IMG/VR virus record: IMGVR_UViG_3300043775_002575
Span: 1-55,945 of that record
DNA length: 55,945 nucleotides
Direction: 5' to 3' (one strand)
Source: a virus
Position numbers and translations under genes: made by a program. Position 1 is the stretch's first letter; every line of letters starts with the position of its first letter. The notes beneath the pieces were generated by a model. It made no database searches and was not told the DNA's origin. It saw nothing but the letters and a program-made list of their open reading frames with translations. Shown here one piece after another: positions 2,423 to 53,002 of the stretch.

Positions 2423-2826
2423 TCCAGCCGATATTGTTAGTTATTTTATCAGTCACATCTACGGTATTAGGTTTTCTTTTTTACATTCAAAGAAAAAAGA
2501 CTATACAGATAGTTGCCAATATGCTAGATTTTATGATGATCCAGGAAGCACAAAAACAAGAAACAAAAACAGAGCAAGAACAGTCTAATGAAGACTTTTT
2601 AAAATTTATTTCAGATTCTCGTGACTGGGCATACACCTATATAGACGAAGTGCAAGCATCTTTAAATAAGTTTATTAGTGATATTGAGCCAGAGATTAGT
2701 TATTTTAAAGAGTATGGGGATGTCGGATCTATGGCTCCCAACTACTACTCTATGAAAAAAATCACTGGAGCATATGAAGAACTAAAGAAACTGCTACCAG
2801 AAGACTATGGTAAAATAGATACATGA
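2419..2826 (+). CDS. Membrane-anchored coiled-coil protein
   Basis: 135 residues. Residues 3-22 form a transmembrane helix, followed by a Gln/Glu/Lys-rich stretch and long amphipathic helices, suggesting a short membrane-tethered coiled coil. It overlaps both neighbours by 4 bases. The position just before the oxygenases and holin-like genes would fit an accessory lysis or membrane role, but nothing in the sequence proves it. Confidence 0.65.
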   Translation: MIQPILLVILSVTSTVLGFLFYIQRKKTIQIVANMLDFMMIQEAQKQETKTEQEQSNEDFLKFISDSRDWAYTYIDEVQASLNKFISDIEPEISYFKEYGDVGSMAPNYYSMKKITGAYEELKKLLPEDYGKIDT

Positions 2827-12659: not shown

Positions 12660-12741
12660 ATAACCATTATACACTACGAAAAAATCTTTAAAGTTCGGCG
12701 CAAAATAGAAGTTATAAACCTCTATATGCCCTATACGGGCA

Positions 12742-30890: not shown

Positions 30891-31859
30891 CTAAAGCCAA
30901 GGGCCAACTATATGATCGTGTTGGTCACTTAGTGAAATTTCAGATTCTTTTTGAAATTTTTCGTATAGTTCATATGAACCTATTCCGTAGACACCCAGAG
31001 ATGTATCCCCAGATAATATTTTTGCAGCCCTAAAGTAGGAATCTTTATTCATATCTCCCCACTCGGAGTGATCTTGCCAATGAAGAACCCTTTTGTCGCT
31101 ATCATAGTTTTCATTATAAGCATGCCACATATAGTGAAACGATGGATTAATTAGTTTAACTCCCCTGGTGTAAAACCTCAAGGCCAGAGTTGGCTCTTCG
31201 CCAATAAAATACAGTTCTTTATCGTACGGTATTTCTTTTATAATCTTTGACTCACAAAACAAAGAGTTAGCACATAAAAAATATGCTTCATATCCATATT
31301 TAAAATAATCGCACTCGTACCAAAATGGCTGAGGCATGGTGTCTTCATCTTTCCACCCCATAGCCCCTCTCATTGGCACTTTTTCAAAATCGTAGAACTC
31401 TTCTATTCCAGTTTCGTGATCTCTTCTAAATCCTTCTGGGTGCATAGTAAACGCAATCTCAGATTGCCAGTAATCTTTACAGGCGACATAGTTTTCTGTT
31501 ACTACTTTATCCCAATCATCAATAAATCTAGAATGGGAGTCTATCTGTAAAAAATAATCAGTATGTATATCCCTAGAGACAATCTCCCTAGCCCAGCATG
31601 CGCCTCTACTTTCAGAAAAATGGTATTTCACATATCTGATTTGAGACTCTGGTATAAAAGACAAATCAGGATGTTCAGATTCATCGGCTTGAGAAACAAT
31701 TGAAAAAAATAGTCTATCTCTATACTTTGCATTATAGTATGCGCTAGTTACTGTATTTACAAGATCAGGATCTCTATAACTTGCAATTGAAATAAAAATT
31801 GTTTTTGATTTTGATGGAACAAAGCGACTAGCAATTAAAGGTACGTTAATCAATTCCAA
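30891..31859 (-). CDS. Glycosyltransferase, polypeptide GlcNAc-transferase family
   Basis: 322 residues from TTG 31859. IFISIASYRDPDLVNTVTSA at 21-40, SESRGACWAREIVSR and the metal site LQIDSHSRF (D107-x-H109), then WDKVV and GEEPTLALRFYTRG are features of the GlcNAc family (Pfam GlcNAc) that includes the Dictyostelium Skp1 hydroxyproline GlcNAc-transferase. Such enzymes use UDP-GlcNAc and a protein acceptor in the cytoplasm. With four or five prolyl-hydroxylase-like oxygenases in this window, a hydroxyproline target is plausible. It overlaps the upstream gene by 10 bases. Confidence 0.83.
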   Translation of the reverse strand: MELINVPLIASRFVPSKSKTIFISIASYRDPDLVNTVTSAYYNAKYRDRLFFSIVSQADESEHPDLSFIPESQIRYVKYHFSESRGACWAREIVSRDIHTDYFLQIDSHSRFIDDWDKVVTENYVACKDYWQSEIAFTMHPEGFRRDHETGIEEFYDFEKVPMRGAMGWKDEDTMPQPFWYECDYFKYGYEAYFLCANSLFCESKIIKEIPYDKELYFIGEEPTLALRFYTRGVKLINPSFHYMWHAYNENYDSDKRVLHWQDHSEWGDMNKDSYFRAAKILSGDTSLGVYGIGSYELYEKFQKESEISLSDQHDHIVGPWL

Positions 31860-32620
31860 TCAACCACTTCGTCATAGGTAACGCTATACTCTCCTGTGAA
31901 TATTTCTGCATAAGATATGATGTCTTTATTGTACCTTGTAAGGGTGTTTTTACCGACTTTGTCACATAGATACTTTGTACCATTAGTTAGTACCTCAAAA
32001 GCCATCTCTTGCCCTTGTAAGGCGTTATTGAGGGTATCTATGTACCTTGCCTTACCATAACGCTTTGATGTAAAAGATTGATCAACATAATCAAACCTTG
32101 CTTGTGCATCATTTCTTTTTGCAATGTCCGAATTGTCTATTATGTACTTTGTTGCAGGATGTTCCATCCGTGTTGACCAGTTTCGCATGTTATCGCTGTA
32201 TCTCTCCATGTTCTTGAGAGTTGAATCAGCGAAAGCCATGCGTATAAGGTCTTGTTCGGATAGGTCAGCCTCTATTGCGAACGAAATCAAAAAAGCGGTT
32301 GCGAAAGGAAACTTGTCGCTATATGTCGAAACGCCGAAGTGAACATTCGGATTAAATGACTCGACTGACATATTGTCTTCTAATAGTCGCATATGATTTC
32401 CGAGAGATACATACTCTTGTCGATTCATATCGCAGTCGACGAACAAGCATTCTTCTGGATTGATCCCGTCGGCGAGACATAAAATATTTTTGTCGTACGA
32501 ACCCACTATTTTCGAACCGTTAAAACGCTCTAGTAATTTTGCGGACATAAAACCATCCATGTCGGGGGATATAATTAAATTCCTAGAATACTCCAGTGTA
32601 TCCAGTATGTCTGTTTTCAT
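31850..32620 (-). CDS. DHH-like phosphoesterase, putative
   Basis: 256 residues. NLIISPDMDGFMSAKLLERF resembles motif I of DHH phosphoesterases (D-x-D-G-x-x-S-A), and FVDCDMNR could be a later metal-binding Asp. A DHH motif itself is not obvious, so the assignment is tentative. Leaderless start: TATATT complement at 32627-32632, 6 bases before ATG. It is divergent from 32653 and co-directional with the glycosyltransferase. Confidence 0.5.
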   Translation of the reverse strand: MKTDILDTLEYSRNLIISPDMDGFMSAKLLERFNGSKIVGSYDKNILCLADGINPEECLFVDCDMNRQEYVSLGNHMRLLEDNMSVESFNPNVHFGVSTYSDKFPFATAFLISFAIEADLSEQDLIRMAFADSTLKNMERYSDNMRNWSTRMEHPATKYIIDNSDIAKRNDAQARFDYVDQSFTSKRYGKARYIDTLNNALQGQEMAFEVLTNGTKYLCDKVGKNTLTRYNKDIISYAEIFTGEYSVTYDEVVDWN

Positions 32621-32652
32621 TTTTTAAATATACCCCTTATAATAATTTTATT

Positions 32653-32904
32653 ATGACAGTACAAGACTGGGCTTCTCTTATAGTAGCCATACTTACAATT
32701 GTATCATCAATCGCCTTCGCAATCAAGTGGATGGTAAAACATTATCTCAGCGAACTTAAGCCCAATTCTGGATCATCGATAAAAGATCAAGTTTCAAGAT
32801 TAGAGAATCGTCTAAACGAAGCAGACAAAACACGTAAAGATATGGATCGCAAATTAGATCACATGTATGATATTCTTATTGAGTATATTGCAAAATCTAA
32901 GTAA
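32653..32904 (+). CDS. Membrane protein with coiled coil, holin-like
   Basis: 83 residues: membrane helix (WASLIVAILTIVSSIAFAIKWMV), then HYLSELKPNSGSSIKDQ and a coiled coil (RLENRLNEADKTRKDMDRKLDHM). This layout recurs in actinobacteriophage small membrane proteins near lysis or tail genes. ATG 32653 is chosen because TATAAT lies 9 bases upstream; earlier in-frame starts precede it. Function not proven. Confidence 0.6.
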   Translation: MTVQDWASLIVAILTIVSSIAFAIKWMVKHYLSELKPNSGSSIKDQVSRLENRLNEADKTRKDMDRKLDHMYDILIEYIAKSK

Positions 32905-32934
32905 CTATATATACTATATATAAGATATCTTTTA

Positions 32935-32957
32935 AAACTATAAAGATAGTTCTTTTT
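32935..32957 (+). terminator. Short terminator
   Basis: AACTAT-aaag-ATAGTT then CTTTTTT downstream of the membrane protein. Confidence 0.55.
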
Positions 32958-33105
32958 TCTTATATATTTAAAGTATACACTATCCCTAATCTGGCTAAAA
33001 TAGACTTATGGTAACAAATCGGACATTGTCTATTATAACAATTGTATAACAATTATAAAACCTTTACTTTAATGTCCATTTTGTCTATTATGGTATAATT
33101 TATTA

Positions 33106-33160
33106 CTGGCTAATACCTTGGTTTGTCCTATACCCACCAATCAAGGTATTAGTCTTTTTT
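33106..33160 (+). ncRNA. Promoter followed at once by a strong terminator
   Basis: TGG-TATAAT (33091-33099) would start RNA near 33106. CTAATACCTTG (33110-33120) pairs with CAAGGTATTAG (33142-33152), then TCTTTTTT. The transcript would be only about 55 bases with no coding capacity. A second TATAAT (33165-33170) then serves the next gene. It may be a small RNA or an insulator. Confidence 0.5.
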
Positions 33161-33177
33161 ATGGTATAATCATTATT

Positions 33178-33558
33178 ATGGCTACACATGGACCAGAAGT
33201 ATTTGGAGCAGACCCTGCTCGTATAAAATGGCAAATAGTTAGGGGAGACACCTCTCCGCTTCGTGTGGAATTTTTGCAAGATGATGAAGCAACATATTTT
33301 GATACATCTGATTGGACCTTTGAGGCTACTTCTTATGATCCTCAGTCTGATGCTCTTGATTCCCTGGAAGTTTCACGTGGAACAGGATATGTAGATATAA
33401 TGGCTCCATCTTCAGTTACAGCACTATGGGGAACTGGCTACAAAGCAATAGTAACAGAATTAACTTTTGATCTACAAGTTACAATTGACTCAGATACAGT
33501 TTGGACTCCTTTGATTGGAACTATTTCAGTCATTGGTGATGTTACAGGTAGTTTGTAA
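33178..33558 (+). CDS. BppU-like baseplate/fibre connector protein
   Basis: 126 residues starting MATHGPEVFG. IKWQIVRGDTSPLRVEFLQDDEATYFDTSDW follows the W-x-(V/I)-V-R-G-D-T pattern of small beta-sandwich proteins related to the N-terminus of baseplate upper proteins. A paralogue is at 44133-44549. Leaderless (TATAAT 33165-33170, 7 bases). It probably links fibres to the baseplate; this is inference. Confidence 0.68.
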   Translation: MATHGPEVFGADPARIKWQIVRGDTSPLRVEFLQDDEATYFDTSDWTFEATSYDPQSDALDSLEVSRGTGYVDIMAPSSVTALWGTGYKAIVTELTFDLQVTIDSDTVWTPLIGTISVIGDVTGSL

Positions 33559-33644
33559 TGGCAGTAGTTAAAGTTTCAACTCCAAGGCCAGAGTTGCCTC
33601 CAGTAATTAGAATTAAAAATAAAACATTTAAAGTAAATAAATAA
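33558..33644 (+). CDS. Basic microprotein
   Basis: 28 residues (MAVVKVSTPRPELPPVIRI...), basic and Pro-containing. Its start overlaps the previous stop by one base. Doubtful but placed exactly between two structural genes. Confidence 0.4.
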   Translation: MAVVKVSTPRPELPPVIRIKNKTFKVNK

Positions 33645-33662
33645 TCATGAGATAATGTCTTT

Positions 33663-34394
33663 ATGGCTGCTTCTAAATCAATGGACTTTCCTAGTGCAAA
33701 AAAATCTAGTTATGCTGCACAAGTAGAACAAAGCCAAACATCTAACTATCAAGAAAATACATTGTCTTTTCTTCCAGTTCCTGGACCACAAGGACCGCAA
33801 GGACCAGCAGGTAAAGATGGAAAAGATGGCTTGCCTGGCCCAGCAGGTCCAGAAGGACAAAGGGGACCAAAAGGAGAAAAAGGACAATCTGGACAAAACG
33901 GACTAAGTTCTTTATCGTCTTCAGGACAGCAGGCTGGTTGGGCATCTTACACAAACAGCATTAATAAACCAATAAAACTTGGAATATCCCAGGGTGACGA
34001 TGGATGGGTTACATTGTTGCTAGATACAAAAGATAAAACTCAAAATGAAGTCTACATTCCAAAAGGATGTACTAGTCTTTGGAACAGTCATCAGAGAGCC
34101 CTAAACTTCCACGGCATCAAAGAAGGATCCCAAGTGTTCGTAACATATAACTTTGAACTAACCACATATACTTCTAATACTGAGGTTTGGCTAAGGACAT
34201 ATTTTGCAAGCAAGGGGCAAGAGTTTGTTAACTTTGTTGGTTCCCTTAAATATCAAAACACATACAACCTTTCAGTTACTCAAAATATATTTATTGAGAA
34301 TCAGTCTATGTGGGGCAATGGGGCAGTTCCTCAAATACGAACAGACTTTGATGCATCGGTAATACTCAATTCTGTATATGTCAGCGTGGTATAA
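33663..34394 (+). CDS. Collagen-like fibre protein
   Basis: 243 residues. N-terminal 40 residues end in LPVP; then exactly 13 Gly-x-y triplets (residues 41-79, e.g. GPQGPQGPAGKDGKDG), then a beta-rich globular head (80-243). The triplets would form a collagen triple helix, with Pro at position y in GLP, a possible hydroxylation site. Leaderless, with GATAAT at 33651-33656. The stop TAA is part of the next promoter. Confidence 0.85.
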   Translation: MAASKSMDFPSAKKSSYAAQVEQSQTSNYQENTLSFLPVPGPQGPQGPAGKDGKDGLPGPAGPEGQRGPKGEKGQSGQNGLSSLSSSGQQAGWASYTNSINKPIKLGISQGDDGWVTLLLDTKDKTQNEVYIPKGCTSLWNSHQRALNFHGIKEGSQVFVTYNFELTTYTSNTEVWLRTYFASKGQEFVNFVGSLKYQNTYNLSVTQNIFIENQSMWGNGAVPQIRTDFDASVILNSVYVSVV

Positions 34395-34401
34395 TAAAAC
34401 C

Positions 34402-35184
34402 ATGGCATTTCCAGCGACCTATGACTTTAATTACTATAAGGGTGATACCTTTGAGTTTCGTATCTACCCAAAAAAGAACGATGGAACAGCACACCTTTTA
34501 AGTGCTTTTAATGTGCCAACAAACTTTGCCAACAACCCAGACTATGTTTTAGACACATCAGCGCCATACGATAGCGCACAGTTTTCAATTGCCTCAGCCC
34601 GTGGTGCAACTCAAATTATAAATGGAGTTTCTACACCAGTAGTTCCAATTAGATGCTTTGCTAGAATATCCGACGACGGAACATTTGTTCAGTGTGCAAT
34701 TAGACCATCCGACTCAGTTGCCCTAAACGCTGGAACAGAATATGTTTATGATGTTGAAGTAAGAGCAGCAGAAGGAAATTACGACAATCCATTTTATGAA
34801 AAAGTATACACTCTAATGACAGGTAAAATAACAGTAACAGATCAGATTACTGGAGCAAGAGAAAATACTAGTGCCACTTTGTCAAACTATAATATTAGAG
34901 GAGTTACTAAGCCAGTTAAGGGAGCAACCCCAGTAACATCTGTTTTTGAAACAGCAGAACATTCAGGAACTGTTGCTTGGTTTGAGTCAGATGCAACTAC
35001 ACCACTGGTTGGAAACTTTGTTGCTTCCACTTCTTATGTTGCAAAGATTACGCTAACTGTAAAACCTCCATACTATATTACTGGAACCCCAGCAAACAGA
35101 TTTACAGTAGAGCATGCAACAGTTGTTACAAACGCAATTAACTCAGGAATAGTTACTGCAGTATTCCCTGCAACAGGGGCTTAG
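34402..35184 (+). CDS. Beta-rich tail/baseplate protein
   Basis: 260 residues starting MAFPATYDFNYYKGDTFEF. The Y-x-G-D-T-F-E-F start echoes the RGDT motif of 33178. It has repeated Ig-like segments and Thr/Val-rich strands. TGG-TATAAT at 34387-34395 is 6 bases before the ATG. Likely a fibre or decoration component. Confidence 0.65.
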   Translation: MAFPATYDFNYYKGDTFEFRIYPKKNDGTAHLLSAFNVPTNFANNPDYVLDTSAPYDSAQFSIASARGATQIINGVSTPVVPIRCFARISDDGTFVQCAIRPSDSVALNAGTEYVYDVEVRAAEGNYDNPFYEKVYTLMTGKITVTDQITGARENTSATLSNYNIRGVTKPVKGATPVTSVFETAEHSGTVAWFESDATTPLVGNFVASTSYVAKITLTVKPPYYITGTPANRFTVEHATVVTNAINSGIVTAVFPATGA

Positions 35185-35186
35185 TC

Positions 35187-35783
35187 GTGGCAGATATACT
35201 TTTATCTAATGATGACCTAACAGTTTTTGGTGGACCAGAAACAATTAGCCTTGATTTAGATTTTGGACCAACTGGTGATCGTGGAAGTATCATTATTGGA
35301 GTCCAGGGAGATCCAAGGCAAAAGTTTGTTAATGATTCAATTTCTCAAGACATCCAGGCATTAGATATTGCAATAGACTATAGCCCATCTTCTCCAACAT
35401 ACAAAACAGTATTTCAAAGAATCTCAGGTCCTACTGAAACACAATGGATTCCTCTAGTTAGTTTAAAGTCAAACTTTTATTCAGAAACCAAAGGGCCCTT
35501 AACACCAGTAGGTGGCAAAATAACTATTGCACCCATAAACCTTGCAGACATTTATGATCTATCAGAAGGAACAGTCACTTCTTCAAGATTTAGCGTACAG
35601 TACTCTATATCTTCACCAGAAAGTGCTGGACCTCTAGCAACAAACCTAATTATAAAAGAACTAAACACTACTCAAGGATTTATCGCTTTGCCACTTGAAA
35701 TAGAAGGAATAGAATATCTAGATGGAGAATGGGTACCTATGGCTGGCCCAAAGTATGTTCATCTTTTTATTACGGTGGTATAA
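35187..35783 (+). CDS. Fibre-associated protein
   Basis: 198 residues from GTG 35187. DLDFGPTGDRGSIIIGVQGDPR is a short GxxGxxG-like part that is common in phage tail collar proteins; the rest is beta-rich, ending GPKYVHLFITVV. The last codons (GTG GTA TAA) are the -10 of the next promoter. Confidence 0.65.
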   Translation: MADILLSNDDLTVFGGPETISLDLDFGPTGDRGSIIIGVQGDPRQKFVNDSISQDIQALDIAIDYSPSSPTYKTVFQRISGPTETQWIPLVSLKSNFYSETKGPLTPVGGKITIAPINLADIYDLSEGTVTSSRFSVQYSISSPESAGPLATNLIIKELNTTQGFIALPLEIEGIEYLDGEWVPMAGPKYVHLFITVV

Positions 35784-35802
35784 TGAAAAAGGGTGATCTA
35801 TA

Positions 35803-38466
35803 ATGGCAGCAGAGAATATTGATGGTACTATCAATGGTACTGGCCTGTTCCCTGCAAAAATACCTGGTCTTTCAGATGCAGCCGATATTCAGGCAGCGCT
35901 AAGACTTTATCACTACGGATCATATACCTATGACGGTGCTAACACAAATGAAGCAACCTTGCTTGCAAACCCATCTGTTGCAGCACATCTACAAACTCTT
36001 AAAAATGCTGATGCAGCAGAAGTAACAAACAGAAATGCTGCAATTGCTGTAGAAACAACAAATAGAAATACTGCAATTACAACACACAATGCAGCAACAA
36101 CAAATGTTCACGGAATAGCAAATACAGCAAACCTTGCAACACAGCAATTTGTAGCAACTGCAGTTACAACTGCAATAAGCGGTGCTACTGGAGGATATCC
36201 TGCTCTTGCAGGAGATGCTATTGATTGGAACTCTGTTGACGCAAGATTTGATGTTGTTCCACAACTTGCAAATGTTGGAACAGTTATAACAAAAACAGAA
36301 AACTTTATCTTATCACCCGATGATGTTGGAAAGACTGCTATTTTGTATTCTTCTAACCCAATAGTTGTGACTCTTCCAGCAAACGCTTTAGTAGAAATTC
36401 CAGTGGGATATTCAATTGATATAATTCAAACAGGCACTGGTTCAGTAACTGTATCTGAAGGCAGTGACGCTGTTTCAATTAATAGCAAGGCTGGAATAAA
36501 ATCTCTAGATGGACAATATTCAAAAGGTACTCTGGTTAAAATAGACACCAATACATGGTTTTTTTTTGGAAACTTACTTAACGTAGTAGTTCCAACACCT
36601 GTTCCAACACCTGTAGCACCAGTTCCAGTTCCAACACCTGCAGTAGTTCCTGTTGCACCAACACCAATAGTTTCTCCAGTTGCCCCTGTTGTTCAGCCAA
36701 CTGCTCCAACACCAATAGTTTCTCCAGTTGTTCAACCTACAACTCCAGTTGCTCAAACACCTACTCTTGCAACCCCATCACTTTCTGTAAGTATGGGACC
36801 AGACGGATTTAATGGTGCAGTTTATGCAAATGTTACAGTAACAAATCATAGTAATGATAATACATACACATCAAATCTTGGAACACAAAACCCTGAGTTC
36901 CCAGAAGAATTTAATATTTCTGGATTAACTAGTGGTCAATCTTACACAGTTTATATAACTGCATCTCGTTCTGGATATACAAGTGCTCAAGGATCTATAA
37001 CCTTTACCGCAAATGCAGTGGCTCCAACACCTGTAGCAACTCCAACAAGTCCAGTTGCTCCTGTTCCTGCAGTTGCTCCTGTTACTCCAACTGCTCAACC
37101 TAACTACTATGTTTTCACATATTATGACGGAAAATGTAACTACATAGTGTATGATTTCCTTGATAATGAAATAGGAACATACTCAACAAATCTTTGTACA
37201 AATTCTGGAACAGATGCTTCTGGGGCAACTCTTCCAAGTTGTAGTAATTCAGGTTGTGTTTCTACTACACCAGTTGCTCCTGTACCAGCACCAACACCAG
37301 CACCAACTCCTACGGTAATTGTTGCACCAGGAACAGTTTATTTATCATATTGTGATCCTCAAGGTGGGCCACAAGTTGAATCATATGCAATTAATGCAGA
37401 CAACATTCTTTCTACAAATATTAATACTGCATGTGCAACATACTATGATGTCTTAAGTTACGCAGGAGCAACAAATATTCAGTGCTCTACTGCTTCATCG
37501 CCTGGAGCCCCATCATGTGGAACCGCCCCAGCACCGACACCAGTTGCTGCTCCAGTTGCTCCTGTAGCACCAGTTCCAGTACCAGTTGCGCCTACACCAG
37601 TTCCAGCAGTACAGACTTCTACAATTTATCACGCAGTATGCTTTAGTGATGGCGGTACAAGCAATGACTCAAGCACAGTTCCAAATATGCTTTATTCCGA
37701 TTGTACAACTTACCGAGCATTTGTACTAAGTATTGATCCAGGAGCATCTATAAATTGTTCTGCTTCAGGGCCAGTTTCTTTACCAGGATGTGTTGCACCT
37801 ACACCAGCACCAACACCTGTAGTACCTGTAGCGCCAGTTCCAGCACCAGTTGCTCCTGTAGCGCCAGTTCCAGCACCAACAGCACTAACATGTCCAAACA
37901 ATGACACCTATGGAGTTACAAGTGGAGGAGTCTACAGTGGTTCTTGCCCTGATGGTTCATGTCCAGGATGTAGCAATTACCAAGAGAAGTGGTACAAGTG
38001 CTCTGATGGAAGTTCAGGAACTAAGTTCTATGTAGGTCTTGGATGTAGCACACCTGTAGCACCTGCACCTGTTGCACCTGCACCTGTTGCACCTGCACCT
38101 GTTGCACCTAGCCCTGCTCCTACTGCAGCACTAGACTGTACAGCGTGTACTGGATATAGCGGACTTGCAGGAACAGAAGTACAAGACTGTTCTGATGGAT
38201 GCGGAACTAGAACATTGTGTAGAACGCCTCTAGGATGTGCCAACTACTACTTAAATGAATGTCCAGGTTGTGCTGCTCCTACACCAGTTGCTCCTACACC
38301 TGCTGCTGCGACACCTACAGCGTCTTCACCAACAGCATGCGTTGCAAACTGCGTATTTGATGGTTATACCTGTAATGGATGGGCAGCAACATATACTTAT
38401 ATTAACTATGGATGTGGAGGAGCAAGTGCTTGCCCTCCTTATACCGATAATTTTGGTTGTGCATAA
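35803..38466 (+). CDS. Large tail fibre with XP-rich linkers and Cys-rich modules
   Basis: 887 residues. N-terminal 1-120 are helical trimer-like (AEVTNRNAAIAVETTNRN), 130-262 resemble a fibre head (GGYPALAGDAIDW, IDIIQTGTGSVTVSEG). From residue 263 Pro-rich linkers (APVPVPTPAVVPVAP) alternate with one fibronectin-type domain (about 333-405) and several modules of about 40-60 residues with four to eight cysteines. The XP linkers lie near 263-332, 406-436, 488-508, 575-605, 663-695, 749-773 and 823-843. Alternating Ala/Thr/Val-Pro is the arrangement glycosylated in plant arabinogalactan proteins. Role: receptor binding. Confidence 0.8.
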   Translation: MAAENIDGTINGTGLFPAKIPGLSDAADIQAALRLYHYGSYTYDGANTNEATLLANPSVAAHLQTLKNADAAEVTNRNAAIAVETTNRNTAITTHNAATTNVHGIANTANLATQQFVATAVTTAISGATGGYPALAGDAIDWNSVDARFDVVPQLANVGTVITKTENFILSPDDVGKTAILYSSNPIVVTLPANALVEIPVGYSIDIIQTGTGSVTVSEGSDAVSINSKAGIKSLDGQYSKGTLVKIDTNTWFFFGNLLNVVVPTPVPTPVAPVPVPTPAVVPVAPTPIVSPVAPVVQPTAPTPIVSPVVQPTTPVAQTPTLATPSLSVSMGPDGFNGAVYANVTVTNHSNDNTYTSNLGTQNPEFPEEFNISGLTSGQSYTVYITASRSGYTSAQGSITFTANAVAPTPVATPTSPVAPVPAVAPVTPTAQPNYYVFTYYDGKCNYIVYDFLDNEIGTYSTNLCTNSGTDASGATLPSCSNSGCVSTTPVAPVPAPTPAPTPTVIVAPGTVYLSYCDPQGGPQVESYAINADNILSTNINTACATYYDVLSYAGATNIQCSTASSPGAPSCGTAPAPTPVAAPVAPVAPVPVPVAPTPVPAVQTSTIYHAVCFSDGGTSNDSSTVPNMLYSDCTTYRAFVLSIDPGASINCSASGPVSLPGCVAPTPAPTPVVPVAPVPAPVAPVAPVPAPTALTCPNNDTYGVTSGGVYSGSCPDGSCPGCSNYQEKWYKCSDGSSGTKFYVGLGCSTPVAPAPVAPAPVAPAPVAPSPAPTAALDCTACTGYSGLAGTEVQDCSDGCGTRTLCRTPLGCANYYLNECPGCAAPTPVAPTPAAATPTASSPTACVANCVFDGYTCNGWAATYTYINYGCGGASACPPYTDNFGCA

Positions 38467-38503
38467 AAATGCAATATGATATACTATATTAAAAGGAGAA
38501 AAA

Positions 38504-38881
38504 ATGCAATTTAAATTAAATGCTGAAGACGAAGTCATTGATTTTATTTATATAGAGACAGACACTGAGACAGGTTTGCCAGTAAGAGATACAGATGTTT
38601 TGGTATTTAATTCACTATCTTCTAGTCCATCTGTTGTAGAAATAACTGATTTAGAATATAATCCAGAGCAGGGCTCTATTTGGAACGGTAAAGATTTTAT
38701 AGATCCAGAAAATAGAGAACCAAGACCTCTTGCTAAAAAAGATGATGGTTTTAGAAAGTTTGCATTTATTGTAGACAACGAATATAAGTTTTTCTATGGT
38801 GTTGCAGATACACCAGAAAACGGAATGAAGATTGCAATTCTTTCTAGCAATCCACAAGTTACAATTGGAGAGGAAATATAA
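38504..38881 (+). CDS. Structural-region hypothetical protein
   Basis: 125 residues, acidic, beta-rich, with IWNGKDFIDPENREPRP in the middle, resembling tail-fibre-associated chaperone or assembly proteins. AAAAGGAG precedes the ATG, and TATACT lies upstream, so this gene has a leader. Overlaps the next gene by one base. Confidence 0.58.
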   Translation: MQFKLNAEDEVIDFIYIETDTETGLPVRDTDVLVFNSLSSSPSVVEITDLEYNPEQGSIWNGKDFIDPENREPRPLAKKDDGFRKFAFIVDNEYKFFYGVADTPENGMKIAILSSNPQVTIGEEI

Positions 38882-39120
38882 TGGAAGAGAATCTATCGCC
38901 ACTGCAAAAATACAAGCAGATGCTTGGAGATACAAGACCTTGGGATGTTGTAAATCCAAATACTGAGTGGGCAGATGAAGAAGTAGCAAAAGAAAGATTT
39001 TCCATCTGTAAAGGATGTCCAGAATTAATTAAACTAACTAGTCAATGTAAAAAGTGTGGCTGCCTTATGAAAGTAAAAACAAAATTAGAAAAAGCGGTTT
39101 GCCCACTAGGAAAGTGGTAA
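38881..39120 (+). CDS. DUF6171-like zinc-ribbon protein
   Basis: 79 residues. The C-terminal half ICKGCPELIKLTSQCKKCGC, then KTKLEKAVCPLGKW, with C43, C46, C56, C59, C61 and C74, matches a family found beside phage tail genes. Likely binds one or two zincs. Function unknown. Confidence 0.78.
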   Translation: MEENLSPLQKYKQMLGDTRPWDVVNPNTEWADEEVAKERFSICKGCPELIKLTSQCKKCGCLMKVKTKLEKAVCPLGKW

Positions 39121-39121
39121 A

Positions 39122-39712
39122 ATGAAACCAGCATACCTGTTAAAGACAGTTTTTCCACCAGAAGAGCATTTGGCTTTACAAAATCTTGCAATGAATCTTT
39201 GGTCAACAGACAAAAGCACGTATGATAGAGGTTTTGGAAGACATCAATGGACAATTTGGGATAATACTCACGGTCCTGCAATTGAGCCATTAAGAAGATT
39301 TCACGAAATGCTTTTACCATTAGCAAGAGAAGAGTTTGAATCAGAAACTCTTGTGCCATCTTGGTGCCTATTAAGTATTTATGAGGGAAAAGAAGCAAAA
39401 TTATGGAAGCATGTAGATGATAACGCTTGCACATACCATATAAACTATACAATTTTTCATAAAACACCTTGGGACTTTTATGTAGAAGGTGAAAAATTTC
39501 AGGCAGAAGAAAATGATGCAGTTATTTCTTATGGTAATGATCAGTTACATTGGAGGGAAGAATTTCCAGATCCAGAACACAATCTAGTTGCTAATGCATT
39601 CTTTTTTTATACAGAGCCAGATCATTGGTTCTTTAAGCATGGTCCACAATATCTATATACTGATATTCGTAAACCAGTTGAAGGCAAAGAAACAATAAAA
39701 GAAACTATGTAA
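39122..39712 (+). CDS. 2OG-Fe(II) oxygenase-like protein
   Basis: 196 residues. EAKLWKHVDDNACTYHINYTIF carries H97-x-D99, and QLHWREEF carries H143, matching Fe ligands; the 2OG Arg is not certain. Sequence is diverged from the P4H-like copies elsewhere. It stands at the head of the sugar cluster, next to an O-fucosyltransferase-like protein. It may hydroxylate fibre protein residues before glycosylation. Confidence 0.68.
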   Translation: MKPAYLLKTVFPPEEHLALQNLAMNLWSTDKSTYDRGFGRHQWTIWDNTHGPAIEPLRRFHEMLLPLAREEFESETLVPSWCLLSIYEGKEAKLWKHVDDNACTYHINYTIFHKTPWDFYVEGEKFQAEENDAVISYGNDQLHWREEFPDPEHNLVANAFFFYTEPDHWFFKHGPQYLYTDIRKPVEGKETIKETM

Positions 39713-40744
39713 ATGAATAAATTATTCTTTCAGTTATATAATCCTACAGGTTTAATAAATCAGGTAATGAGCCTTGAGTTGGCAGCAGGGTTATCTCATG
39801 AACTAAATGTTCCAGTCATTATGCACTATGGAAGATATACAGCAGACCCAAAACTTTATTTTACTGATACAATTCCAATTTTTAGTCCAAGCAGGTTTTA
39901 TAATGAACAAAGAAAAGGTTTTACAAACGATAACCAATTTCCTCACTTGCTAGACCTTATGGATTTTGATCAAAACATAATTATAATTGATGAAAAAATA
40001 GATCACTTTGAACAAGAAGAACTAGTTATTGATGATATTATGAATAATTTTTATTATAGTAATCAACCAGAAATAACTGGAGATGAGTTTCTTTTTGCAG
40101 AAGGAAGAAAAAGACTTCCACTAGATAAAACACTTCATTTAAAATTGACTCTCGGCTGGTACTCAAGATTTTTTTATAAAAGAAGTGATAGCCTAAACAA
40201 AGCAATATCTTCAGTCAGATTTAAAAAAGAGTATGTAGATTTAGCAAACAAAATATATCACTCTATCGGAGAATTTCAAGGAATGCACTTAAGATTATCG
40301 GATCACATAAAGATGTTTGAAACAAAACAAGAAATGTTTGAGTCATGGCTAGATAAATTTGCACAGAATAATCTTCCTGTAGTTTTATCAACTTGTGAGC
40401 CAGGACATAAAATGGTACAAGATAATAAGCATAGGTTTATACTGTTAGATGAATATATTGTGCATAATTTTAGAGATGAATTTATGGCTTTGCCATTTCA
40501 GGATGAAGTAGTTTTTGGACTTATATGTAACTTGGTAATGCATAATGCTACAAACTTTGTTGGAACATCTGGAAGCACATATACTGCCTATATTCATAGA
40601 AATAGAAATCAAAAAGGAATTGAGACTTGGGACTTTTTTGACAACCCACCAAAGACAACATCAACTCGTTACTCTTGGAATGGATCTTCTTTAGAGAATG
40701 GCAGAAAAATGTGGTGGAGAGAATGGCCAGAATCAAAATGTTAA
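39713..40744 (+). CDS. O-fucosyltransferase-like glycosyltransferase
   Basis: 343 residues. The N-terminal NPTGLINQVMSLELAAGL, central GMHLRLSD and C-terminal FVGTSGSTYTAYIHRNR correspond to the G-x-x-N-Q, G-x-H-x-R and T-x-x-S-T motifs of GDP-fucose protein O-fucosyltransferase-like enzymes. It would transfer a sugar from a GDP donor to a protein or glycan. A GDP-sugar epimerase two genes downstream could supply the donor. Confidence 0.73.
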   Translation: MNKLFFQLYNPTGLINQVMSLELAAGLSHELNVPVIMHYGRYTADPKLYFTDTIPIFSPSRFYNEQRKGFTNDNQFPHLLDLMDFDQNIIIIDEKIDHFEQEELVIDDIMNNFYYSNQPEITGDEFLFAEGRKRLPLDKTLHLKLTLGWYSRFFYKRSDSLNKAISSVRFKKEYVDLANKIYHSIGEFQGMHLRLSDHIKMFETKQEMFESWLDKFAQNNLPVVLSTCEPGHKMVQDNKHRFILLDEYIVHNFRDEFMALPFQDEVVFGLICNLVMHNATNFVGTSGSTYTAYIHRNRNQKGIETWDFFDNPPKTTSTRYSWNGSSLENGRKMWWREWPESKC

Positions 40745-40815
40745 AAAGAATTTTTTATAAGTTTAAAATGTGGCGTAAGTATAAAAAAATAAAAAAGGGT
40801 AAGTTTATTTACTAA
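40738..40815 (+). CDS. Basic microprotein
   Basis: 25 residues, almost all Lys, Arg, Phe and Tyr (MLKRIFYKFKMWRKYKKIKK). Overlaps its neighbours by 7 and 1 bases. Could be a membrane-active peptide or a chance frame. Confidence 0.35.
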   Translation: MLKRIFYKFKMWRKYKKIKKGKFIY

Positions 40816-41753
40816 TGCTTTTTGATATGTTTAATCCTAGAGTTATTCCTCATATGGGTATTGATAAAACACAACCAAAAAAGGATTATTCTCATACTAC
40901 TGAAATATTGGCAGGGCATTCAGAAGTACCAAGACCAGAATACAATTATAAATGGAATAGCGATAACCTAAGATCCATAGAGTTTGCGACAAAGCCACCA
41001 ATAGTAGCCCTAGGTTGCTCTATAACGCTTGGCCAAGGACTTCCAGAACATCTTAGGTGGACCGACCTTCTATCTAATCGTATTGGGGTCCCTATAGGAA
41101 ATATATCTTATTCTGGAGCATCTGCAAACAAGTTGGTTTCTAGTTTTTTAGGAATGATTCATCAATATCAATATAAGCCAGAGATTGTTATTGCTCATTT
41201 TGCAAACTTTGAAAGATTTTATTTTGTTAGCCCAGACGGGGAAAGAATGCAGGAGTGGTTTATTAATCATAGTGCAAAAAAAACAAAAGCATCAGCACCT
41301 TGGAACTATGAAGAGATTTTGCCATATGAGTGGGTTTATTATCAAAATCTAGATCATATTAAAATGCTAGAAGCATTCTGTGAGGCAAGCGGAATTAAAC
41401 TGTACTGGTCTTCTTGGTCACACGGAATGACAGATGAACAAGAACAATTCTTAAAAGACAACTTTAGGCATTATGTTTCAGACACAACAAAGAAAGAGTT
41501 TCCAGCAGACTTTGAACTTGGTTTTGTTGCAAACAGTGTGCCTGAACTTACCAAGCATTTTGAGATGATAAATTGGCAAGGGTGCCATCATGGATGGAAA
41601 GACATGTACCCAGAAATATTTGACTATGGCTATGACTACCACAAAATTGCATATGACTATGGAAGACTAAAGGGGCCTGGAGCGCACTGGCCACACCCTG
41701 GGCTACATAAGCAGTTGCATATTTCTGAGTTTTGGGAAAAACTAATATCCTAA
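40815..41753 (+). CDS. SGNH/GDSL-family hydrolase (second copy)
   Basis: 312 residues. Block I GCSITLGQGLPEHLRWTDLL and catalytic-type HWPHPGLH at the C-terminus match the copy at 8378-9403, so the two are paralogues. It lies between the O-fucosyltransferase-like gene and the GDP-mannose epimerase, so it probably removes or adds acyl groups on a sugar. Confidence 0.78.
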   Translation: MLFDMFNPRVIPHMGIDKTQPKKDYSHTTEILAGHSEVPRPEYNYKWNSDNLRSIEFATKPPIVALGCSITLGQGLPEHLRWTDLLSNRIGVPIGNISYSGASANKLVSSFLGMIHQYQYKPEIVIAHFANFERFYFVSPDGERMQEWFINHSAKKTKASAPWNYEEILPYEWVYYQNLDHIKMLEAFCEASGIKLYWSSWSHGMTDEQEQFLKDNFRHYVSDTTKKEFPADFELGFVANSVPELTKHFEMINWQGCHHGWKDMYPEIFDYGYDYHKIAYDYGRLKGPGAHWPHPGLHKQLHISEFWEKLIS

Positions 41754-41803
41754 ATATTTTAAAATAGGGATATATACTTTAAGTGAGAGAATTGTGAGAT
41801 AGT

Positions 41804-42835
41804 ATGAAAACAGCATTAGTCCTTGGAGCAGGTGGCTTTATCGGTAGCCACATGGTTAATAGACTTAAGTCAGAAGGATACTGGGTTAGAGGTGTTGATC
41901 TAAAGCATCCTGATTTTTCTAACACACAGGCAGACGAGTTCATTGAAAGAGATCTGTCCGTTTATGAAAATGTTGAAAAGGCAATTCAGTTTAAAGGATA
42001 TCAAGGAAACTTTTACAGCGAAATTCCATATAAGTTAATTACTAGTTTTGATGAGATTTATCAATTTGCTGCAGATATGGGTGGCGCTGGATATATATTT
42101 ACTGGAGAACACGATTCCCAGATTATGGAAAACTCTGCACTTATAAACCTTAACTTGCTTAGGGCACAATCAAGACTAAACGCAAAATATGATATTAATA
42201 AAACCAAAATATTTTATTCAAGTTCTGCCTGTATGTATCCTGACTATAAGCAGTTGGATGTTAATAATCCTGGATTAAAAGAGTCTGACGCATACCCTGC
42301 CGATCCTGACAGCGAGTATGGCTGGGAAAAATTGTTTAGTGAAAGAATGTTCTTAGCCTTTAATAAAAACAACAGAATTCCCGTAGCGATTGCCAGATAT
42401 CACAACATCTATGGACCAGAAGGAACTTGGGATGGTGGAAAAGAAAAGGCTCCTGCAGCAATGTGTCGAAAAGTTATACAGTCAGATGGCTTTATAGAAA
42501 TTTGGGGGGATGGAGAACAAACCCGTTCATTCCTATATATAGATGAATGCATAGAAGCAACAAGAAGACTTATGAAATCAGACTTTACTGGTCCTGTTAA
42601 TATTGGATCTGAAGAAATGGTTACTATCAACCAGTTGGTAGATATTGCTTGCAGTATTGAGGGCAAGGTTTTGAGCAAGATGCATATCCCTGGACCTTTG
42701 GGAGTTAGAGGAAGAAATTCTAATAATGACTTGGTAAGAGAAAAACTAGGCTGGGATTACTCAATGTCTCTTAAAGACGGAATTGAAAAAACCTACAACT
42801 GGATACTTCAGGAAACAAAAAAGAACCCCTCCTAA
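41804..42835 (+). CDS. gme: GDP-mannose 3,5-epimerase
   Basis: 343 residues, usual family length. LGAGGFIGSHM (NAD site), AADMGGAGYI, SSACMYPDYKQL, the Y-x-x-x-K catalytic YGWEK, ARYHNIYGPEGTWDGGKEKAPAA and GVRGRNSNNDLVREKLGW all match the plant GDP-mannose 3,5-epimerase closely. It converts GDP-D-mannose to GDP-L-galactose (and gulose). Plausible role: donor supply for the GT downstream of the fibres. ATG 41804 follows a TATACT region. Confidence 0.93.
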   Translation: MKTALVLGAGGFIGSHMVNRLKSEGYWVRGVDLKHPDFSNTQADEFIERDLSVYENVEKAIQFKGYQGNFYSEIPYKLITSFDEIYQFAADMGGAGYIFTGEHDSQIMENSALINLNLLRAQSRLNAKYDINKTKIFYSSSACMYPDYKQLDVNNPGLKESDAYPADPDSEYGWEKLFSERMFLAFNKNNRIPVAIARYHNIYGPEGTWDGGKEKAPAAMCRKVIQSDGFIEIWGDGEQTRSFLYIDECIEATRRLMKSDFTGPVNIGSEEMVTINQLVDIACSIEGKVLSKMHIPGPLGVRGRNSNNDLVREKLGWDYSMSLKDGIEKTYNWILQETKKNPS

Positions 42836-42856: not shown

Positions 42857-43420
42857 TTACTTAGGAAATTTAGCCATCCAGTATTTGGTTCTTGGAGTGA
42901 TGCCCTTCCATGAGGACCAATCATCTCCACCATTTGTCATATAGTATGCAATCTCTGCATTCTTGACGGGATTGAATAGTTCAGCATTTGACTCAAGATC
43001 AAACTTAGTTCTACGGTCAGGACCAAGGTTGTCTATCATGTTAATTTGGAACATACCATAAGATGAGTCACCAGTCTTGTGGTTTCCGTTAAATGCTAAT
43101 GGTCGCCCATTAGATTCTTTCTTTGCTACCGCCCAGGCAACAACAAGGTCTTTGCCCTTGAAGCCAACCAGAGACAACAGTTCCTTTAGTTCCAAATCAG
43201 TCAGAGAAACCTTATTCTCAAAACTCTCTAACTTTTTAGCCTTAGAAACCAAAAAAACCTCTTTCGAGGCGGGTTCTACTGTCTGAGCCTGTTCTATGCT
43301 CAAGTTGTTTTTAGTATCAAGACCTGAATCAGCATTGGCTCCGTTCGACAAAACAGTTACTAATGCTACGATACTGAGTGTGCTAATGATCTCTTTGTTT
43401 CTTTCGATAAATTTAATCAT
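42857..43420 (-). CDS. Secreted lytic transglycosylase/lysozyme-like protein
   Basis: 187 residues starting MIKFIERNKEIISTLSIVAL; ATG 43420 is chosen because AAGGAGG precedes it. N-terminal signal or anchor (residues 10-30), spacer, then a lysozyme-like domain: AWAVAKKESNGRPLAFNG (catalytic Glu), TGDSSYGMFQINM and NAEIAYYMTNGGDDWSSWKG. It should cleave peptidoglycan glycan strands. Own promoter 43468-43497 and terminator: a single-gene unit. Confidence 0.85.
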   Translation of the reverse strand: MIKFIERNKEIISTLSIVALVTVLSNGANADSGLDTKNNLSIEQAQTVEPASKEVFLVSKAKKLESFENKVSLTDLELKELLSLVGFKGKDLVVAWAVAKKESNGRPLAFNGNHKTGDSSYGMFQINMIDNLGPDRRTKFDLESNAELFNPVKNAEIAYYMTNGGDDWSSWKGITPRTKYWMAKFPK

Positions 43421-43467
43421 AGTTTCCTCCTTAGAAAACAATAACACCTTGGTAGGTGTTACTACCT

Positions 43468-51223: not shown

Positions 51224-53002
51224 ATGGCAGTTAATAAGAATATAGGTGGAAGATCACAGGCAGCAAATGACTTCTTGGCACCACTTGCACCAATAGATGT
51301 TGTTCTAACAGATGTTGGAACAAACAGACCATATAATAATGGTGCCGTATCAGTTGCATTTGCACTGCCAGCAAACTCTCCTCAAGCAACATCATACACA
51401 GTAACACTCAGTAGCGGACAAAGCAATACTGGGTCTTCTTCTCCTATAACCGTTACAGGAATTAATTCGTCAGCATCAGTTACTGCAACAGTAACCGCAA
51501 CAAATGAAATTGGAACATCTCCATCATCTTCTGTATCTTCAGCAGTAACAGTAACTACAGTTCCAGCAACACCAGGAGCACCATCAGCATCATCTTCTTC
51601 AGCAGGAACAGACTATGTTTCATGGACAGCACCAGATAATGGTGGAAAAGCAATTACTAACTATCGTTGGACATCTGATGATGGCAAAGCAGGAGATACT
51701 TCTTCAACTGCAGTGAATGTTGGTCAAGAGCAAGGATCGGCACAGACATACAATGTTTATGCCACTAATGCCAATGGAAACTCAGGAACATCTTCTGCAT
51801 CAGGATCTGTTACTACAGCATTTTCTTTCGCACCATTTGGTGCTTTTGGTTTCGTACCAGCACCTACACCAACGCCAGTTGTAAACTGTAATCAGTGTCT
51901 TAGTTATGAACCATCCGATGGTTCTTATGGATTAACACAAAGTAATGGATCATGTACTTCAGGTACAATAACTTACAGAATGTGTCGTACTCCAGGTGGC
52001 TGTCCAGATGTACCTCAGTTTGGTCCTTGCGTTCCACCAGCACCAACACCAGCACCTACACCAGTTCCAACACCAGCACTTGACTGTGTAACATGCGTAG
52101 GCGGTACATATAATCAAGATTGTCCAAGTGGACAAGTAGGAACAATAACTTATTGCAGAACTGCAGCAGCATGTCCTGACTATATACAAAGCAATACTTG
52201 TGCAGCAGCACCTACACCAGCACCTGTACTAAACTGTACAAGTTGTGTTTACGGTGAAACAGAACCTGCTTGTCCATCTGGCCAAGTTGGTTACCGTCGT
52301 CGCTGTATTACAGCATCAGGATGCCCTGATTATGACATTGTTAACACATGTACAACACCATTCGGAGCCTTCGGTGCTTTCGGAGCCTTTGGAGCCTTCG
52401 GAGCCTTTGGAGCCTTCGGAGCCTTCGGTGCTTTCGGAGCCTTCGGTGCTTTCGGAGCCTTCGGTGCTTTCGGAGCATTCGGTGCTTTCGGAGCATTCGG
52501 TGCCTATACTTTCGGTAAGTCTGTAAGCGTACACACATTAGTGTTAACCACAAATGGATACGTTGAAGCAGGAAATCTTCAAGTAGGAGATGTCCTAGTT
52601 TCTACAGAAATTCCTGGTCTAGGAATGAACTTTACAAAGGAAGATGTTAAAAACTGGTCAGGAAACCCAGCAGATCTTGCTATGGTTCCTGACAAGGAAA
52701 CAACAATTATGCATATAGGAACAACTACAGCAGAAGACTCTGTATCTATCAATGGTGAATTTTATTCAGGATCTCACTATATGCTAGTAAAAAGAGATGG
52801 AGTTTCAAAGATGATTGCATCTATTGATCTTCTAGATACAGATGAGTTGTGGTCTACAGATACAAATACTTGGACTGCAATAACTGAGTTGACTATCTCA
52901 CATATTCCTCATCAGGTAGTTTCTATAAACTGTGAGCCTTATGACTTGTTCTATACAGATCACTTCTTGGTTTACGATGGATACCAAACAGCAGAAAACT
53001 AA
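51224..53002 (+). CDS. Fibre with Fn3, Cys-rich modules, FGA repeat and Hint domain
   Basis: 592 residues. Order: N-terminal region, two fibronectin-like domains (about 27-200), XP-rich linkers, three Cys-rich modules of about 40 residues (C-x2-C...C-P-(S/D)...C...CPD...C, residues 220-375), a 16-copy FGA tract (380-427), then a Hint/intein-type domain (431-592). The Hint start has GKSVSVHTLVLTTNGYVEAG, with Ser where the catalytic Cys usually lies, and a GSHYMLVKRDG block-B-like segment. The protein ends in Asn, as an intein would. Function of the domain is uncertain. Confidence 0.8.
   Translation: MAVNKNIGGRSQAANDFLAPLAPIDVVLTDVGTNRPYNNGAVSVAFALPANSPQATSYTVTLSSGQSNTGSSSPITVTGINSSASVTATVTATNEIGTSPSSSVSSAVTVTTVPATPGAPSASSSSAGTDYVSWTAPDNGGKAITNYRWTSDDGKAGDTSSTAVNVGQEQGSAQTYNVYATNANGNSGTSSASGSVTTAFSFAPFGAFGFVPAPTPTPVVNCNQCLSYEPSDGSYGLTQSNGSCTSGTITYRMCRTPGGCPDVPQFGPCVPPAPTPAPTPVPTPALDCVTCVGGTYNQDCPSGQVGTITYCRTAAACPDYIQSNTCAAAPTPAPVLNCTSCVYGETEPACPSGQVGYRRRCITASGCPDYDIVNTCTTPFGAFGAFGAFGAFGAFGAFGAFGAFGAFGAFGAFGAFGAFGAFGAFGAYTFGKSVSVHTLVLTTNGYVEAGNLQVGDVLVSTEIPGLGMNFTKEDVKNWSGNPADLAMVPDKETTIMHIGTTTAEDSVSINGEFYSGSHYMLVKRDGVSKMIASIDLLDTDELWSTDTNTWTAITELTISHIPHQVVSINCEPYDLFYTDHFLVYDGYQTAEN
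52361..52504 (+). repeat. 16 x 9-bp FGA-coding tandem repeat
   Basis: Sixteen copies of a 9-base unit (TTCGG-(A/T)-GC-N, with synonymous changes) coding Phe-Gly-Ala. Length changes would stay in frame. It forms the flexible or aggregation-prone tract before the Hint domain. Confidence 0.92.

Follow-up and report, generated by a model that had tools for sequence, protein, structure and literature searches.

A recurrent, modular gene cassette pairing a 2OG-Fe(II) oxygenase with exchangeable glycosyltransferases beside proline-rich fibre genes of related phages

Does a phage that carries oxygenase and glycosyltransferase genes next to its fibre genes modify its own fibres? The question is raised by IMG/VR virus record IMGVR_UViG_3300043775_002575, a complete record of 55,945 bases that we analysed in full (hereafter the window) and whose genes are named below by their first coordinate. 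An earlier note had proposed that prolyl 4-hydroxylase-like (P4H-like) 2-oxoglutarate (2OG)-Fe(II) oxygenases scattered over the window act on tail fibres together with a GlcNAc-transferase, an O-fucosyltransferase-like enzyme and a GDP-mannose 3,5-epimerase. Every open reading frame (ORF) named there was found where it had been placed, and the core is a compact same-strand cassette at 38881-42835, smaller and tighter than the note implied. A DUF6171 gene is followed by 39122 (2OG oxygenase), 39713 (transferase), 40815 (SGNH-like) and 41804 (epimerase), all on the plus strand, with no nucleotide between 39122 and 39713. The large fibre gene 35803 and then a small ORF, 38504, precede the cassette, an opposite-strand lysozyme-like gene ends it, and gene order places it between two sets of fibre genes on the same strand. 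The DUF6171 gene (38881-39120), the SGNH-like gene within the cassette and a second proline-rich fibre gene, 51224, had not been noted before. Because a WhiB-like gene is present at 1900-2181, the host is probably actinobacterial; a WhiB-like gene was found in 10 of the 19 records tested, the window counted. Glycosylation of the neighbouring proline-rich fibre is the best reading of the cassette, and within it a hydroxyproline (Hyp) acceptor and L-galactose as the sugar are plausible but unproven.

The gene that anchors the cassette, 39122, has no Pfam match, and its profile gave no meaningful match in the PDB. An AlphaFold2 (AF2) model (pLDDT 90) matched AlkB and PHD2 in Foldseek at about 1e-7, and a second aligner returned Z scores of 14.8-17.4 among the 50 matches listed. 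The nearest folds are 2OG oxygenases of several kinds, namely SnoN, HalB/BesD, PHD2 and bacterial P4H, and the residues H97, D99 and H143 (H-x-D...H) are invariant in 27 aligned sequences. The structural search thus bears out the earlier suggestion of a diverged 2OG oxygenase; the model clearly shows a 2OG-Fe(II) dioxygenase fold but does not point to one substrate. Among isolated phages 39122 gave partial matches only, to two cyanophages that are each listed under two accessions. These relatives, in S-SM1 and Syn30, are labelled 'ferrochelatase' in 3 of the 4 records, which is probably a propagated misannotation, since the predicted fold of 39122 is that of a 2OG dioxygenase. Two pattern-based scans of bacterial and archaeal contigs found no relative of 39122 or 39713.

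The assignment of 39713 as O-fucosyltransferase-like held for the fold but not at the Pfam O-FucT cut-off (E 0.025; 14.6 bits against 31.5). Its AF2 model (pLDDT 84, pTM 0.87) is closest to POFUT2 (Z 16.5), POFUT1 (14.1) and NodZ (13.6), followed by plant FUT1 and FUT8; among the matches listed the POFUT/NodZ/FUT8 group spans Z 16.5-11.2 and the next other row stands at 9.4. Identity to the POFUT and NodZ rows is 11-16%, and the 39713 profile reached POFUT2 in the PDB at E 0.1 only. Residues H192 and R194 are invariant in 31 aligned sequences and form an H-x-R motif that we take to be characteristic of this fold group. No relative of 39713 was found among isolated phages.

For 41804 the assignment as a GDP-mannose 3,5-epimerase was confirmed by similarity to the Arabidopsis thaliana enzyme (2c59; 1e-91, and 1e-84 for a second-clade relative) and by conservation of the catalytic positions: C143, Y172, K176, K215 and R304 are invariant in 62 of 62 sequences, and position S141 is Ser in 43 (the window included) and Thr in 19. 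Its predicted product is GDP-L-galactose. Second epimerase-like genes with scores below the cut-off occur in two related records, G012 and G016. The remaining enzyme gene, 40815, has no Pfam match and in the PDB weakly matches thioesterase I (E 0.17); invariant G-C-S-x-T and H-P-G motifs in 11 aligned sequences suggest an SGNH-like protein, possibly acting on sugar acyl groups.

Viral contigs were scanned for relatives of the window's enzymes (L numbers denote viral contigs or loci, G numbers related records). The scans gave 11 loci for the GT60 gene 30891 and 71 for 39713; the profile scan for 39713 used the best 80 of 98 relatives and the scan for 39122 the best 80 of 524. The 173 ORFs of the 39122 family (OG5) include repeated contigs and were reduced to 89 distinct ones, which were grouped by transferase type and at 90% identity of their 2OG proteins into 51 clusters. 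Thirteen clusters lack a complete cassette (12 POFUT-like, 1 without transferase), and one complete cluster has no transferase downstream. Anchored on the 39122 family, the cassette in the relatives occupies a slot between fibre genes and a lysozyme-like gene; it also stands beside other genes, for example in several of L046-L055, where by eye the neighbour looks tape-measure-like, and is found in further contigs such as L077, L100 and L103. A gene could be read after the 2OG gene in 50 of the 51 clusters: 27 of these have a POFUT-like gene there, 7 a GT60 gene and 3 a putative third transferase, at a spacing of -22 to +3 nucleotides (nt). Directly upstream of the 2OG gene lies a P4H-like gene in 20 of the 51 clusters, overlapping it by 13 nt in 16 of these 20, and a DUF6171 gene in 24; the DUF6171 gene precedes the P4H-like partner in some clusters. 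The partner, c17, has an H-x-D...H metal triad and a distal Arg, and its profile best matched prolyl 4-hydroxylases in the PDB (5e-12); among isolated phages it was found in 210 records, mostly Synechococcus phages.

The accessory genes follow the type of transferase. Of 26 complete clusters with a POFUT-like gene, 25 have the epimerase gene (a cluster that has GT60 upstream as well as a POFUT-like gene downstream is scored as POFUT-like), whereas it is present in 0 of 8 with GT60 alone (Fisher p 5e-7, restricted to complete POFUT-like and GT60 clusters) and in 0 of 3 of the third type. With the third type a nucleotidyltransferase gene is found instead, in 3 of 3. Pfam gave no match for this type, and its designation as a transferase comes from this neighbour and from a D-T-D motif seen by eye. 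Such coupling would be expected if the POFUT-like enzyme used the epimerase product and GT60 a common UDP-sugar, and is support for that assignment, not proof. On a tree of the lysozyme-like gene (63 rows, of which L182 is long and unsure) the transferase type switches at least 12 times, 3 of them forced by well-supported branches. In some relatives the cassette is extended by a carbamoyltransferase (closest to NodU), a sulfotransferase, an FkbM-type methyltransferase or putative further transferases; of the last, c23 and c37 were named by eye from H-x-R-R-G motifs, their profiles align with each other, the c23 profile does not align with that of 39713, and the c23 profile found nothing in the PDB. 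From these data we conclude that the 39122 family, transferase and P4H-like set is a real, recurrent and modular cassette in which the 2OG gene is the anchor and the transferase is exchanged. The co-occurrence search proposed earlier recovered the hydroxylase-transferase unit but not GT60 and the POFUT-like enzyme as one set.

The neighbouring fibre fits the role of substrate. The protein encoded by 35803 has 105 Pro in 887 residues and, as first described, linkers of alternating Ala/Thr/Val-Pro, six in number; the residues preceding Pro are mostly A (35), T (23) and V (15). Its PHROG tail fibre match is weak (3.7e-5). Alternating-Pro runs in the DNA of the window gave 5 matches, at 37279-37310 and 52037-52074, against a shuffle mean of 0.01. 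Strict runs of this kind occur in 10 of 12 large related records; judged by position and codons, some belong to such fibres and others to Glu-Pro-type proteins elsewhere. A reversed-pattern control for these records nearly equals the pattern and is uninformative. The collagen-like fibre 33663, the other substrate first proposed, is indeed collagen-like by PF01391 but appears a poor prolyl hydroxylase substrate, as only 1 of its 14 Gly-X-Y triplets has Pro at Y, and its candidacy as main substrate is weakened. The 51224 protein has a long F-G-A repeat and Cys-rich modules, only a weak Pfam collagen match, and a C-terminal region that looks Hint-like by eye.

Proximity to proline-rich proteins extends to the relatives. 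Of the distinct cassettes for which 5 kb or more of upstream sequence is available, 50 of 53 have a protein with at least 10 Pro per 30 residues within 7 kb upstream, against 62 of 1255 other ORFs. The Thr/Ser share before Pro ranges from 2% (L084), 6% (L066) and 7% (L059) up to 95% (L103); because some of these fibres have almost no Thr or Ser before Pro, Pro is the feature common to them. Viral scans for (PT)5 and (AT)5 approached the association from the repeat side (at least 120 stretches each, 120 used). A P4H, OG5, GT60 or POFUT-like gene was found with 13 of 120 (PT)5 stretches and 0 of 120 (AT)5 stretches (p 1.7e-4); the two sets differ in GC content (85 versus 38 under 50%), and the stretches below 50% GC alone gave 13 of 85 versus 0 of 38 (p 0.009). 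The 13 positive stretches comprise 7 with a 2OG gene and 9 with a transferase, 3 having both and 6 having GT60 alone; one, L298, matches the known cassette contig L070 in length and gene content. The order recurs in L289 (fibre, P4H, GT60) and L272 (fibre, P4H, epimerase) and more loosely in L220, where GT60 and two P4H-like genes lie about 6 kb from the fibre. The link between enzymes and fibres, first drawn from one window, is thus strengthened: a unit of hydroxylase and glycosyltransferase is tied to Pro-rich fibres across related phages, which supports the proposal that such fibres would be hydroxylated and then glycosylated.

One lineage, L009-L012, behaves as though the linkers followed the hydroxylase. 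GT60 occupies the slot, and its 92-kb record has no match to the 39122 profile, the P4H-like profile or PF13640, although the controls G001, G006 and G019 matched. In the homologous fibre long poly-Thr linkers replace the Pro repeats (for example L011 3113-5149, minus strand). Of the ORFs that reach 15 Thr per 30 residues, this is the sole fibre without matching Pro richness; the other exception is a protein named tape-measure-like by eye. A further viral scan for a second hydroxylase-less lineage found none and returned known contigs, together with one new contig, L435, that has 39122-like, POFUT-like and epimerase genes.

Several observations weigh against fibre hydroxylation followed by glycosylation. 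As to the enzyme, 39122 is without the usual 2OG-binding Arg/Lys about 10 residues past the distal His (R40, R145 and R183, invariant in the 27 sequences, are alternative candidates), and its nearest folds include enzymes of free amino acids or small molecules (HalB, BesD, SnoN) besides PHD2; in two cyanophage records, relatives of 39122 and of the P4H-like partner lie among other 2OG genes with no annotated fibre or transferase within 6 kb. The coupling of epimerase and transferase reduces to 3 independent pairs where branches are well supported, nearly all pairings being concordant (sign test p 0.25); the two genes are adjacent, so joint transfer alone explains part of the association, and 6 of 19 distinct incomplete POFUT-like cassettes show no epimerase in the available stretch. 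Hydroxylase loss is seen in a single lineage, whose 92-kb record may be a fragment. As to the substrate, 3 of the 53 cassettes lack a strongly Pro-rich upstream protein (L049, L050 and L077, the last with 9 of 30), strict alternating-Pro runs lie only far from the cassette in G007 and G009 (Glu-Pro-type) and are absent from G008 and G011, and 107 of the 120 (PT)5 stretches show none of the four enzymes. Most repeats also hold Thr, a possible acceptor, and the Thr/Ser share is the same with or without a P4H-like gene (p 0.64). Finally, none of six records with GT60 near TP repeats matches PF13640 or the 39122 or P4H-like profiles.

The pathway proposed in the earlier note, with hydroxylation by the scattered P4H-like enzymes, GlcNAc added by 30891 and fucose by 39713, draws on every enzyme family being present in one window. 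The family assignment of 30891 was correct: it matches PF11397 (GT60) at 111 bits against a cut-off of 21 and has a D-S-H motif, which places it in the family of the Skp1 Hyp GlcNAc-transferase. However, the gene lies outside the cassette on the opposite strand, beside a DHH-like gene that is its neighbour also in L002-L012, and GT60 and POFUT-like genes mostly alternate in the slot. Both occur in L126, L127, L130 and L435, and in L002-L006, near-identical relatives of the window, with GT60 outside the slot. Only 3 of the 15 records with a POFUT-like gene have a GT60 match (G001, 100% identical to that of the window; G012, 32%; G002, weak and with an internal stop), so a complete Skp1-type set does not form one unit. 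Nor was an enzyme for GDP-fucose found above the cut-off: GDP-mannose 4,6-dehydratase scored above it in 0 of 19 records (below it in 8) and GDP-fucose synthase in 0 of 23 (below it in 16), and many of the weaker matches are the epimerase itself, although GDP-fucose for 39713 could come from the host. Skp1 itself carries a galactose between GlcNAc and fucose (PMC8724618). We regard this pathway as very improbable.

Two other explanations have more in their favour. The transferases might modify Thr or Ser of Thr-Pro linkers as in mucins, the 2OG enzymes having a different task, such as hydroxylation of the sugar, of some other residue or of a partner protein. GT60 includes mucin-type polypeptide GlcNAc-transferases as well as enzymes acting on Hyp, so its acceptor varies within the family (PMC6939170, PMC8724618). 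Thr is common before Pro, the poly-Thr fibre of L009-L012 goes with GT60, and the six records just mentioned (L196, L208, L242, L262, L277 and L285; 35-297 kb) combine GT60 and Thr-Pro repeats, no 2OG gene of the kinds searched for being detected; they possibly encode mucin-like phage glycoproteins, and there the evidence favours Thr as acceptor. Yet several fibres adjacent to cassettes are nearly free of Thr and have A/V/I-Pro repeats, the 2OG gene anchors the set and in most cases directly adjoins the transferase gene, and Pro repeats give way to Thr in the lineage without it, so we consider the mucin-type explanation unlikely for the cassette. A host or free glycan, such as a wall polysaccharide, a teichoic-acid-like polymer or a lipid-linked sugar, might instead be altered to block superinfection, adjacency to fibres then marking a hotspot. 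NodZ and FUT8, which act on glycans, are among the fold matches of 39713, some relatives carry a NodU-like carbamoyltransferase and a sulfotransferase, and phage XacN1 has GT60 beside a carbamoyltransferase with no annotated fibre within 6 kb. Cell-wall modification has been proposed as a possible role of actinophage glycosyltransferases (PMC10202952). The top folds for 39713 are protein O-fucosyltransferases, however, two sets of fibre genes flank the cassette on its own strand, and phages with different neighbouring genes again have P4H-like partners and Pro-rich proteins; modification of a host glycan is, in our judgement, rather improbable.

Table 1. Features of the cassette, its surroundings and other candidate genes in the window
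Feature	Coordinates	Strand	Evidence
Large fibre, six Pro-rich linkers, proposed main acceptor	35803..38466	+	Pro count, weak PHROG tail fibre match
Small ORF separating fibre and cassette, in some relatives	38504..38881	+	synteny
DUF6171 Cys-rich small protein, cassette gene 1	38881..39120	+	PF19668 E 1.4e-6
Diverged 2OG-Fe(II) oxygenase (OG5), cassette anchor	39122..39712	+	AF2 model, Foldseek, invariant H97/D99/H143
POFUT/NodZ-fold glycosyltransferase	39713..40744	+	AF2 model, fold search, invariant H192/R194
SGNH-like protein, possible sugar acyl-group enzyme	40815..41753	+	motifs
GDP-mannose 3,5-epimerase, predicted product GDP-L-galactose	41804..42835	+	1e-91 to 2c59
Lysozyme-like gene, boundary of cassette slot	42857..43447	-	PF18896 E 6.7e-16
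Collagen-like fibre	33663..34394	+	PF01391 E 6e-8
Second fibre: Pro-rich linker and F-G-A repeat	51224..53002	+	alternating-Pro run
GT60 glycosyltransferase outside cassette, role uncertain	30891..31859	-	PF11397 1e-31
P4H-like 2OG oxygenase, possible extra hydroxylase	2823..3425	+	PF13640 1e-10, metal ligands kept
P4H-like 2OG oxygenase	3428..3979	+	PF13640 2e-13, metal ligands kept
P4H-like 2OG oxygenase	12048..12674	-	PF13640 2e-12, metal ligands kept
Weak luciferase-like N-half fused to 2OG-type domain without both His	10350..11777	-	Pfam, alignment

The four P4H-like genes outside the cassette had been counted as members of the pathway. All score above the PF13640 cut-off (10350 in its C-terminal part), and the designation stands for 2823, 3428 and 12048, in which alignment places H-x-D...H and a later R. 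It fails for 10350, which is probably not an active oxygenase, because both iron-binding His are replaced (P-I-D-D and Y-W-Y-H-V at the two positions); its luciferase-like monooxygenase half is itself weak (Pfam E 0.058). Related records have anywhere from 0 to 10 PF13640 genes, and with this variation and the loss of metal ligands in one copy the proposal that all four belong to the pathway was set aside as unproven; for 2823, 3428 and 12048 membership is at most putative. Six related records (G004, G005, G007, G008, G010 and G017) have 8-10 PF13640 matches each, many in tandem. Elsewhere in the window lie two small sulfotransferase-like genes (9670-10245 and 13413-13964, minus strand; the second below the cut-off), possibly for further glycan decoration, and a cytochrome P450 (29287-30471, plus strand; PF00067 E 8e-57) with the sequence F-G-K-R-Q-C-I-G, which we take to be a heme-binding motif; the relative L007 carries a tandem pair. 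The GT60 profile found nothing in the PDB. Among isolated phages only three records, all of Xanthomonas/Stenotrophomonas phages, matched the GT60 gene 30891, with an identity of about 24%, and the GT60 of L007 was matched only in XacN1. A megablast search of an annotated phage collection found no near-identical genome, and a search of 19 records for T4-type Gp23 gave no match, its control being also silent and the result hence uninformative.

Taken together, we favour a mechanism in which the cassette genes, presumably co-expressed, modify the adjacent fibre. In this mechanism 39122 would hydroxylate the Pro-rich linkers, most likely to Hyp, acting in about 40% of related clusters with its overlapping P4H-like partner. 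The epimerase 41804 would convert host GDP-mannose to GDP-L-galactose, from which 39713 would attach L-galactose, on Hyp. The SGNH-like protein, and in some relatives the carbamoyltransferase, sulfotransferase, FkbM-type methyltransferase or further transferases, may then decorate the sugar, and the resulting coat could stiffen or protect the extended linkers or vary the fibre surface. For this chain as a whole, from Hyp to L-galactose, we see the chances as evenly balanced.

Sugars linked to Hyp occur in plants, algae and protists. Plant Hyp-rich glycoproteins include an alternating Ala/Thr/Val-Pro repeat type, and the plant Hyp transferases are not known to share the fold of the phage transferase. 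The extensins and arabinogalactan proteins of plants and algae share with the cassette Pro-rich repeats, prolyl hydroxylation and a sugar on the hydroxyl; unlike them, the phage system has GDP-L-galactose as its predicted donor and a fibre rather than a wall protein as its predicted substrate. Hyp-linked glycans of plants and algae are described in PMC8724618. The cytosolic Skp1 pathway of Dictyostelium and Toxoplasma likewise runs from prolyl hydroxylation to a GT60 (PMC6939170, PMC8724618), but coupling of 2OG and GT60 genes is seen in relatives and not in the cassette of the window, and the POFUT fold contrasts with the GT74 fucosyltransferase of Skp1 (PMC8724618). With POFUT1, POFUT2, NodZ and FUT8 the likeness is the predicted fold of 39713 (Z 11.2-16.5 among the matches listed); 39713 differs from them in being paired with a GDP-L-galactose-type epimerase and in scoring below the O-FucT cut-off. 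Mimivirus, a giant virus of eukaryotes, has a collagen lysyl hydroxylase and glucosyltransferases, so that Lys and not Pro is modified and the transferases are others. What it shares with the phage is virus-encoded enzymes for collagen-modifying hydroxylation and glycosylation (PMC9546862, PMC11838735). Closer to the probable host, a virion protein, putatively the capsid, has been proposed as the target of mycobacteriophage glycosyltransferases, and the available text describes no hydroxylase step (PMC11256854). A study of freshwater phages mentions phage glycosyltransferases and, separately, a variable island that holds tail fibre and collagen-like genes (PMC10202952); the accessible portions of two further freshwater-phage papers contain none of the enzyme terms sought (PMC6802176) or mention glycosyltransferases once, for host surface glycans (PMC12143481). 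In the open-licence literature, so far as its text was available, no report of a phage system for fibre hydroxylation and glycosylation was found.

A broader proposal, which we put forward tentatively and hold to be somewhat doubtful, is that WhiB-bearing, probably actinobacterial phages evolved Hyp-rich glycoproteins of their own, with a constant hydroxylase, an exchangeable transferase socket and linkers that follow the hydroxylase. If true, each transferase would bring its own donor enzymes (for GDP-L-galactose, UDP-GlcNAc or a third sugar nucleotide), and linkers would be Pro with the hydroxylase and Thr without it. The phages would then possess a bacterial-virus counterpart of plant arabinogalactan proteins and a means of switching the surface glycan of the tail fibre, varying the fibre surface while the receptor-binding sequence stays. 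Hyp-glycosylation chemistry would extend to viruses of bacteria, part of the many unexplained 2OG oxygenases of environmental phages would gain a role, and the cassettes would be a source of compact enzymes with which to produce L-galactosylated or Hyp-glycosylated proteins.

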